From contig CP126121.1 in assembly GCA_030123625.1 (NCBI GenBank), positions 1,962,179 to 2,026,178 of the forward strand: DNA of 64,000 nucleotides. The letters are read 5' to 3'. Below the pieces are notes generated by a model. That model ran no database searches, was not told the origin of the DNA, and saw nothing but the letters and a program-made list of their open reading frames with translations. A program made the translations under genes and the position numbers. This document shows positions 9,138 through 11,784 of the stretch, in pieces. Position 1 is the stretch's first letter, and each line of letters starts with the position of its first letter. Origin of the DNA: Nitrospira sp. (GTDB lineage Bacteria > Nitrospirota > Nitrospiria > Nitrospirales > Nitrospiraceae).

Positions 9138-10448
9138 TTACGCAGGAACCAGTGTGACGAGCCAGGGGGGAACTTCTTCGGTCATGGAAGCGAACTTCCG
9201 TGCAGTGCTGCTCGCCGGAATGCCAGGAAAGGTGGCGCCTCGGCTGATGCGGACATACCGGAAATGACCGGCAACGTCATCCATTAAAGAAGATGAGCCT
9301 GATCGAAGGTAGTGACGCCGAAGGGCCGCCAACTCAGCCAAGTCCATTGATTCGCCGGTCTGCAGACCTATAAGGGCATGGTAGACCTCGCCGAAGACCT
9401 CCGGCAGATTGACGGAGTGAAAGGGTTGGTCCGGTGGACGATAGCGTGAGTCCTCGAGCAACTGCGCCAGGAGTTCCCAGAATACTTGCGCATCCATTGA
9501 TCCAAGCACGCATAGGAATCCGCGGCGAGCGAGCAGGCTCAAGAGATCGAGGGGGCCGACGATCTCAAACTTCCACGGCGGGAAGAGAAGCGCGCGGCCG
9601 GCATGCCGGACTTCAAGCGCTTGTTCTTTGCCGAACTGTGTCCTGTGAAATGCGCCTTTGGTGCGCTCCAGCTCGCTGCGAACGAGTGTCTCGGAGAGCC
9701 TCGTCGGCTCATAGGCGAAGGTCGGTGTGGCCGGCGCCCAACAGGTGGCGATGGTATATCGCGGGGCCAGCAACCCCTGCTGATCCAGATCTCCAAGTTC
9801 AAACATGTCTTGATTGCCGAAGAAAGAGAAGGAAAGCCCCTCCTTCCGCCGTAATTTCTGCAGCCTTTCCGGACTCGCATGGAGCGGGCCGCCCAGTTGG
9901 GAACGGGGATCGAGCCGGTCCAGGCAGTGAACGATGAACGGTCGGTGTTGTCGATTGAGCTCGGAGCCGTACAGATCGACTAACTCCTCGGCGAATGAGA
10001 GATCGCCGGCCCCGATCTCCAACACGGATGCTGCGTCAGTGCAACGAAGAAGGAGGTCGAATGGATTCTTCAAACGGCGCACAGCTTTTTCTACTTCCTC
10101 ACTCGACAGATGCGTCACAGGCCACTTCGAGAATGCTGTGGGCACCAACTCAAAAAAAACGGCCAATGCGCGCAGGGCCTTGGCCGGAGGGAAACCCGTG
10201 GCGGACTTGAGGGCTTCTCCGTCGAGATCCTGAGCCCGTCGCGGCTCGTGTTCTTCGAAGAGGCGCAACAACCGTTCTTTCACTGAAGCCGGAAGATCTT
10301 TGCTTCGAACGGCATCACAGAGTCGCGTAATAGTGGAGGGAAAGGTGGTTTCCTCCAGCACCTTCTTTGATGCCTCCCATTGTCGGGGAAGCTGACGCGC
10401 GCGAGCACTCACGGCGCGGCGGAATTCAGCGAGTAGGTCGGAACTCAT
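9138..10448 (-). CDS. Putative methyltransferase-like protein
   Basis: A 436-aa soluble protein. Near residue 150 it carries VLEIGAGDLSFAEELVDLYG, which fits motif I of class I SAM-dependent methyltransferases. The acidic residue is followed by LCDRL-like strands (FIVHCLDRL). The rest, including a roughly 140-residue N-terminal helical part and a C-terminal extension, is not recognised. The ATG at 10448 is used; a TTG at 10484 would add 12 residues. It is a single gene between the MoxR operon and the divergently transcribed ChaN gene. The methyltransferase call rests on one motif, and substrate is unknown. Confidence 0.7.
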   Translation of the reverse strand: MSSDLLAEFRRAVSARARQLPRQWEASKKVLEETTFPSTITRLCDAVRSKDLPASVKERLLRLFEEHEPRRAQDLDGEALKSATGFPPAKALRALAVFFELVPTAFSKWPVTHLSSEEVEKAVRRLKNPFDLLLRCTDAASVLEIGAGDLSFAEELVDLYGSELNRQHRPFIVHCLDRLDPRSQLGGPLHASPERLQKLRRKEGLSFSFFGNQDMFELGDLDQQGLLAPRYTIATCWAPATPTFAYEPTRLSETLVRSELERTKGAFHRTQFGKEQALEVRHAGRALLFPPWKFEIVGPLDLLSLLARRGFLCVLGSMDAQVFWELLAQLLEDSRYRPPDQPFHSVNLPEVFGEVYHALIGLQTGESMDLAELAALRRHYLRSGSSSLMDDVAGHFRYVRISRGATFPGIPASSTARKFASMTEEVPPWLVTLVPA

Positions 10449-10614
10449 GGAAGCGTGATCGGCTGTGCGTGAGAGGGTTATCAAGGACCGTTAGATCGAG
10501 GAGCATAGTAATCTTCAAACTTCAGCGTCAAGTCCGCTTGTTCACGCCTATTCGGTATGGTAGGAGTGGTCCATGATTCCTATCCTTCGTATTATGTTCA
10601 CACCCAAGATCACT

Positions 10615-10806
10615 TCAGGAGGCTCAAAAAGGCCGTCCAGCAAGGCCGCAGCGAGCGAAGGGGCGAAGCGTACGCTTCGGTACGTTGAGCCTCTGAGGTT
10701 CACGCCGTGCCGAATAAGGCACGGCACGTTTGTGAACGCCGCCGAGATGGTGAGGCGGCAGTGTCCCGCGAGAACGCCGCTGGCGGACTTTTTGAGCATC
10801 CTGCCG
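10615..10806. repeat. MITE-like element with inverted ends
   Basis: About 190 bp with imperfect terminal inverted repeats. The left end begins ggaggctcaaaaaggccgtc, and the reverse complement of the right end begins aggatgctcaaaaagtccgc. Inside are a perfect 14-bp palindrome (gaagcgtacgcttc, 10665-10678) and a hairpin with an 8-bp stem (10704-10711 with 10718-10725), wrapped by a second 6-bp stem (10698-10703 with 10732-10737). There is no coding capacity for a transposase. The structure fits a miniature inverted-repeat or REP-like interspersed element, and lies directly before the ChaN start. Confidence 0.7.
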
Positions 10807-10824
10807 GCCTGGCGATCGGCCGTC

Positions 10825-11784
10825 ATGCTGGGCTCGCTCGTGGCTCTGCTGGCATTCCCGATCGGCTGTGGAGCTGAGCGTGAGGCCAGCCTCCGTTCAG
10901 ACACCGATGAGAAATGGCAACCTTGGCAGGTTCTTGAAACACAATCCGGCCGTATCGTCCCTTTTTCAGAATTGATGACGAAGCTGGAGCAACATGACAT
11001 TGTCTATCTGGGAGAGGAACACCATAATCCCTACCATATTCAAGCAGCCCTGAAAGTACTGGATCAATTGGTGGCCGACGGCATTGAACCGACCATTGGA
11101 ATGGAGATGTTCGGCTGGGACGGCCAACCGGCACTCGACAATTATGTCGCGACAACTCAGCCGGTCACGAACGAGTTTTTGGAACAGGTGCGCTGGAAGC
11201 AAAATTGGGGTGGAGCATTTGAAGACTACGCGCCATTGGTGACGTTTGCACGAGACCGACACTTGTCCGTCCTGGCGATGAATCCACCCAGACCTTTGAT
11301 TCGGGGTGTCGTCAAACGGGGCCTCGACCAGGAGAGGCATGAGCCGGAATGGGTGCCGTGGGGAATCTTGCAGGAGGATATCGTCGACGACCCAGCGTAC
11401 CGGGGAAGAATTCTCGATCAGTTGCGACGGTGCCACGGAGGAACCGAGGAACACTTCCGGACGATGTATGAGGCATCGATGGTCCGGGACGAGGGCATGG
11501 CGAGAACACTGGTCCACCGACAAGAAGAATTTCGCCGGGAGAGCGACGGCCCCCGTCGAATGATCGTGAGTTACACGGGAGGAGGCCATGTTCAATATGG
11601 CCTCCCCGTACCGAAGCGGGTCGCTAGACGCCTGGGAGATGACATCAAACAAACCACGATTTACATGATGTCGTTTGAGCCCAGTAAAACCGAAGAGGTT
11701 CGGACACTCATGCAGGAACCCATCGCTGATTATATTTGGCTGACGCCCATGGGAAAATCCAGCTCAACCAAACCCTGCCGATAG
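10825..11784 (+). CDS. ChaN family lipoprotein (haem-binding/Tiki-like)
   Basis: A 319-aa lipoprotein of the ChaN family, whose studied members bind haem. The start at 10825 gives a classical lipoprotein signal, MLGSLVALLAFPIGC, so the mature protein would be lipid-anchored at Cys15. The body shows family features: IVYLGEEHHNPYHI with Glu-Glu-His-His, then IGMEMFGWDGQPALDNY, and a late SYTGGGHVQYGLPVP segment. The frame stays open upstream to 10573 only because it reads through the MITE-like repeat, so I exclude that part. The repeat may affect transcription of this gene. Haem binding is known for relatives, not shown here. Confidence 0.87.
   Translation: MLGSLVALLAFPIGCGAEREASLRSDTDEKWQPWQVLETQSGRIVPFSELMTKLEQHDIVYLGEEHHNPYHIQAALKVLDQLVADGIEPTIGMEMFGWDGQPALDNYVATTQPVTNEFLEQVRWKQNWGGAFEDYAPLVTFARDRHLSVLAMNPPRPLIRGVVKRGLDQERHEPEWVPWGILQEDIVDDPAYRGRILDQLRRCHGGTEEHFRTMYEASMVRDEGMARTLVHRQEEFRRESDGPRRMIVSYTGGGHVQYGLPVPKRVARRLGDDIKQTTIYMMSFEPSKTEEVRTLMQEPIADYIWLTPMGKSSSTKPCR

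Follow-up and report, generated by a model that had tools for sequence, protein, structure and literature searches.

Several kinds of short bacterial repeat bear comparison with the element described here. REP units are given as 20 to 40 bp in the passage that we cite (PMC3733652), and REPs are described, in a partial extract, as landing sites of several insertion sequences (PMC1525189). The ERIC or RU-1 elements of enterobacteria are 127 bp long, occur in many intergenic copies, and in some cases are read in frame inside genes, according to the sections of the account used here (PMC2759123). The palindromic elements of Rickettsia, about 150 bp long, are inserted in frame into genes, as stated in the excerpt consulted (PMC10969869). 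Finally, insertions of the IS5 family carry a conserved duplication, YTAR, as far as the cited portion of the source goes (PMC10359306).

The repeat that we analyzed in a Nitrospira genome shares features with each of these systems. Like IS5-family insertion sequences and MITEs, its family has outer ends of the type CAGGCTGCGGAAAAAC, an 18-nt identity to such an end in two copies, and YTAR beside the ends; unlike them, it has no autonomous partner found in its own genome, and its core consists of a single long, structured palindrome into which modules are inserted. With ERIC it shares size (122 bp against 127 bp), many intergenic copies, and a copy lying in frame inside a gene, although the phylum is different and the likeness is one of description, with no claim of shared descent. 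In-frame insertion is frequent among the Rickettsia elements, at least in the extract cited above, whereas in Nitrospira we established one case, in chaN, and many copies lie at gene boundaries; insertion into a coding gene of the Rickettsia kind is seen in the chaN copy only. REP and REPIN sequences with their RAYT transposases are likewise high-copy palindromes and the landing site of an IS110-type element, but the Nitrospira palindromes are much longer, have IS5-like ends, and lack a matching Y1 partner. A limited literature search returned no description of a Nitrospira repeat of this kind. We consider it likely that the repeat belongs to a Nitrospira-wide MITE family mobilized by IS5-type transposases and that this copy lies within chaN with the reading frame open.

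The repeat was examined in a stretch of 64,000 nucleotides (the window), in which two end patterns, allowing up to three mismatches, detect a single family copy. A sequence-only reading had placed a MITE-like repeat with inverted ends, a 14-base palindrome, and a nested hairpin at 10615 to 10806. Each of these structures was located; the repeat is real, but the family boundaries shorten it by a few bases (Table 1). Its arms are 20 nt long and 90% complementary. The predicted RNA fold has an energy of -103 kcal/mol, compared with a mean of -74.9 for shuffled sequences (standard deviation 4.88, z = -5.76), and none of 200 shuffles equaled it; the DNA fold gave z = -5.89.

Table 1. Features of the chaN locus, in window coordinates
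Feature	Position	Strand	Basis or remark
Divergent neighbor gene, 448-aa open frame, no Pfam hit	9138..10484	-	context only
chaN Shine-Dalgarno (SD) sequence AGGAG	10562..10566	+	kept in relatives
chaN reading frame of 403 aa, counted from the conserved start	10573..11784	+	residues 134-350 match Pfam PF04187
Palindromic MITE copy, 188 bp, within the chaN reading frame	10616..10803	+	matching pieces in own genome, family boundaries, arms
Left inverted arm CAGGAGGCTCAAAAAGGCCG	10616..10635	+	arm comparison
Left part of the 122-bp family core, including inner stem and 14-base palindrome	10616..10697	+	element positions 1-82 match short family copies
14-base palindrome GAAGCGTACGCTTC	10665..10678		
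Inner module of ~72 bp, missing from 122-bp core copies, holding the nested hairpin	10694..10765	+	element positions 79-150, by comparison with short copies
Nested hairpin GTTCAC-GCCGTGCC...GGCACGGC-...GTGAAC	10698..10737		
Terminator-like right end GAGAACGCCGCTGGCGGACTTTTT	10770..10793	+	strongly conserved across family; pattern matches, core alignment
Right inverted arm CGGACTTTTTGAGCATCCTG	10784..10803	+	arm comparison
TTG in element right end, possible in-frame chaN restart	10792..10794	+	predicted SD pairing
Conserved lipoprotein-type signal core MLGSLVALLAFPIGC	10825..10869	+	lipobox presumed by us

We searched the source genome (one contig of 4,691,675 bases) and its relatives for further copies. 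BLAST returned 61 matching pieces in the genome itself. The left-end pattern matched 37 times and the right-end pattern 34 times, with no match for either reversed control, and the terminal motif matched 146 times, compared with 6 in its control. With 100 of these 146 motif matches covered, we paired at least 58 copies, 56 of which span 84 to 444 bp and two of which are enlarged by an IS110 insertion. Family matches also occur in 55 of 58 other genomes (56 of 59 counting the source genome). From the relatives we took 38 copies, drawn from loci chosen for good matches or for chaN and including one copy counted twice (L102) and near-duplicates (L240, L258). The repeat is one copy of a structured miniature transposable element family spread through the genus Nitrospira: the 58 paired copies are non-coding, short, and multi-copy, with terminal inverted repeats, as expected of a MITE. 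The genome-wide search for copies with the same ends, proposed as a check in the sequence-only reading, thus bears out its suggestion of a non-autonomous mobile element.

The shortest full copies of the family are 120 to 124 bp long, and 25 of the 38 copies from relatives measure exactly 122 bp. Of 48 short copies, 42 entered an alignment (29 of the 31 found in relatives and 13 of the 17 in the source genome), and from it the core is predicted to be a 122-bp palindrome with 39 base pairs. At least one compensatory double change is present in 20 of the 39 pairs; as judged from the aligned copies, the predicted core stems are kept through compensatory changes. Longer copies, the chaN copy included, carry additional inner modules, and in many a further module of about 75 bp, opening with another copy of the end motif, is attached on the outer left side. 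Long copies at 1031777, 1341062, and 3800816 in the source genome each show two same-orientation matches to the 72-bp inner module, which suggests internal module duplication.

Mobility of the family is shown by one clean empty site. At locus L191 (Nitrospira sp. RSF1), a 124-bp copy with CTAG and CGAG as its flanks separates chaN from the gene beside it, and the sister-species loci L192, L196, and L226 have no copy there. This is a single locus, and its empty site falls one base short of what a perfect 4-bp duplication predicts. A YTAR tetranucleotide stands after the right end of 29 of 58 source-genome copies and of 21 of 38 other copies, against a background of 0.0021 per position. The flanking tetranucleotide is identical on both sides in few copies. 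Most flanks of the MITE agree at three of four bases, a degree of agreement that two independent YTAR sites would give as well.

We searched 39 genomes, including the source genome, for DUF772 transposase genes as likely mobilizers, and 19 of them gave a match. Among 30 DUF772 loci scanned for ends, six (L309, L310, L322, L323, L331, and L332) carry ends that face inward on either side of the transposase gene, allowing up to three mismatches in 15, and L328 has a single end; no inward-facing pair surrounds the gene at the remaining scanned loci. L331 and L328, which lie in other Nitrospira genomes, share the end CAGGCTGCGGAAAAACTC; the MITE copies at 246977 and 2901994 in the source genome have the same 18 nt at their outer left ends. 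The transposases of L309 and L332 pass the NCBIfam IS5 model NF033581 (two of six tested; L331 is not among them). The source genome yielded no autonomous IS5 element with family ends, its best DUF772 locus (L311) being without them, so the mobilizing partner may have been lost or may be a different one. IS5-family transposases would move miniature inverted-repeat elements in trans, and this family was most likely moved in that way, as read from the shared ends. By its ends, its copies, and the empty site, the family fits an IS5-related MITE.

Copies often meet a gene boundary with their right end. In 21 of 58 source-genome copies and in 16 of 38 from relatives, this end directly abuts the stop codon of a gene that runs toward the element, where contact means an offset of 0 or 1 from a frame with 150 or more open codons and copies with less than 500 bases of flank are unable to score. 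At the inner left end, the corresponding counts are 0 of 58 and 1 of 38. When right ends are limited to those that have YTAR and sufficient flank, 16 of 27 in the source genome and 11 of 20 elsewhere close a frame of at least 100 codons, compared with 11.9% of 1,196 control YTAR sites. Five of the stop-adjacent copies in relatives follow genes whose C-termini resemble those of the window neighbors of chaN (9138-10484 for L222 and L257; 8062-9069 for L240, L250, and L258). Most simply, YTAR would be the target of the element, and an insertion would do no harm where YTAR contains a TAA or TAG stop. Insertion would occur at YTAR, and because the duplicated YTAR would restore the stop, insertions would survive mostly at gene boundaries. 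The stop is TGA in 3 of the 37 contact cases, and these are not accounted for by YTAR. By seating itself exactly at stop codons, an element that targets YTAR can spread while doing little damage. A weak signal also exists for gene starts, which adjoin 14 of 58 right ends but 1 of 56 left ends in the source genome; no such enrichment is seen in relatives (2 of 36 compared with 2 of 37).

The copy in chaN departs from this pattern. The element is absent from all 17 aligned close chaN orthologues, and in the wider set of orthologous upstream regions, 67 of 76 lack the end motif and 9 of 76 have one motif (up to three mismatches in 16). The orthologues begin 51 nt before the codon that aligns with ATG 10825, with ATG in 16 of 17 and GTG in one (L196), and their starts are preceded by an AGGAG-type site; the position corresponds to ATG 10573 in the window. 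Between ATG 10573 and ATG 10825 lie 252 nt instead of 51, a net gain of 201 nt or 67 stop-free codons, which comprises the 188-nt element and 13 unexplained nucleotides at the junctions. We considered whether these 13 bases are a remnant of the left module, which they resemble by eye, and rejected this; their alignment score of 24 (26 for the best stretch) falls below the 95% level of shuffled sequences, 36, and nhmmer found no left-module match in them. YTAR is present at neither end of this copy and no target duplication is seen, so this is either an old, eroded insertion or one that came with a local rearrangement.

Since the orthologue start and its SD sequence fall at ATG 10573, the element sits inside chaN, ahead of the lipoprotein signal. 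It leaves the frame open, as the sequence-only reading had said, and the longer gene start is therefore probably genuine and not a product of misannotation. Sequence from ATG 10573 up to the element is highly diverged, however, so this ATG may have arisen anew near the ancestral start. The element is open in one of the three plus-strand frames, and by luck an insertion would be both in frame and open about once in nine. Selection is not needed to account for an open frame, given that 43 of 56 copies have one or more open frames among the six.

How chaN is initiated admits three readings. Translation from ATG 10573 through the element is the first, and predicted SD pairing is strongest there (-6.9 kcal/mol). 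A lipoprotein signal preceded by an n-region of about 90 residues would be unusual, and with a ribosomal restart at TTG 10792 the signal would be of normal length. The element would then donate the start codon, and the upstream ATG would be a decoy or unused; the resulting N-terminus, MSILPAWRSAVMLGSLVALLAFPIGC, is a plausible lipoprotein signal, and the predicted pairing at TTG 10792 is moderate (-4.8 kcal/mol). Against the restart, ATG 10573 has the better SD site and its frame is open across the whole element, and we regard the restart as a tentative possibility short of the favored one. The sequence-only reading had the element as an upstream leader ending 20 bases before a chaN start at ATG 10825, with the longer frame an artificial extension of 84 residues. 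The distance holds, ATG 10825 lying 21 nt past the element, and a start there would be followed directly by the lipoprotein signal core and give an export signal of ordinary length. Yet the conserved start and SD site of all 17 orthologues lie 51 nt further upstream, and the predicted pairing at ATG 10825 is weak (-2.7 kcal/mol), which makes a false extension improbable. Translation of chaN from its conserved upstream start position would correct the likely gene start in the source genome.

We also looked for other genes that contain the element in frame. Copies overlap 36 candidate open frames, one of which is chaN itself, and 20 of the 36 were scanned against Pfam. Thirteen of the 20 have no Pfam hit; in the other seven the domain lies outside the element, which is N-terminal, where a later start is likely. 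A second in-frame insertion was not established among these 20 frames.

The nature of the family itself can be read in other ways. The sequence-only reading had also called the repeat REP-like, and a REP or REPIN element mobilized by a Y1 (REP-associated tyrosine) transposase would indeed be palindromic and present in high copy; the genome contains four Y1_Tnp matches, and the one tested passes the REP_Tyr_transpos model. Its ends, however, are of another kind: two near-identical Y1 units end differently from the family, in GGGTCAGATCTTG... and ...CAAGACCTGACCC, and no family end lies within the four Y1 loci. A Y1 or RAYT partner was rejected on these grounds. The 122-bp core also exceeds the 20 to 40 bp quoted above for a REP unit, within the limits of that passage. 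The family fails the REP/RAYT tests made, on Y1 units with matching ends and on unit size, and in the strict sense a REP origin is highly improbable. The two Y1 units, at L092 and L093, are 933 bp long, 98.7% identical, and encode a REP-associated tyrosine transposase; adjoining one of them is an internally deleted derivative of about 212 bp.

It has more in its favor to suppose that the palindrome is kept at gene ends as a functional RNA or terminator module and is not selfish. The compensatory changes and the stop codons at the right end speak for this, as do an A-run, a GC-rich stem, and a T-run that can be read on either strand. In one orientation, the predicted stems of the core alignment, own copies and relatives' together, hold 53 G-U cells compared with 16 A-C cells, a weak excess because the inherited changes of related copies are counted many times. 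That orientation is antisense to the stop-adjacent genes, however, and YTAR targeting with purifying selection would likewise place copies at stops; Rfam returned no family at threshold and one sub-threshold match. We judge such a function rather unlikely as the reason for the family's maintenance. The copies may serve as portable terminators at the ends of genes. A selfish MITE, here inside a gene without breaking its frame, is the best supported interpretation. More speculatively, and in our view unlikely, the IS5-moved palindromes would form a portable gene-boundary module that sits directly at stop codons and supplies the 3' ends of dozens of genes and, in chaN, a translated or start-donating insert before the lipoprotein signal. 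The repeats are a family for annotators of Nitrospira genomes to mask.

Within these palindromes we came across another mobile element. An IS110-family element with a 346-aa transposase is present in eight nearly identical copies in the source genome; four of these lie at the same place in the palindrome family or a piece of it, and four lie in other sequence. Cases of the element are L087 (1637-2820) and L015 (1700-2890), and 685461 and 1536170 in the source genome. The 1.4-kb copies at L015 and L087 resemble autonomous versions of the family at first sight but are IS110 insertions. As a mobilizer of the family, the IS110 element was rejected: its transposase lies inside the palindrome and half of its eight full copies are outside the family. 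Its position within the palindromes resembles the RNA-guided targeting of REP repeats by IS110 elements, and since an IS110-type element lands in these repeats, the genus may prove a useful natural system for studying how IS110 elements are targeted by RNA guides.
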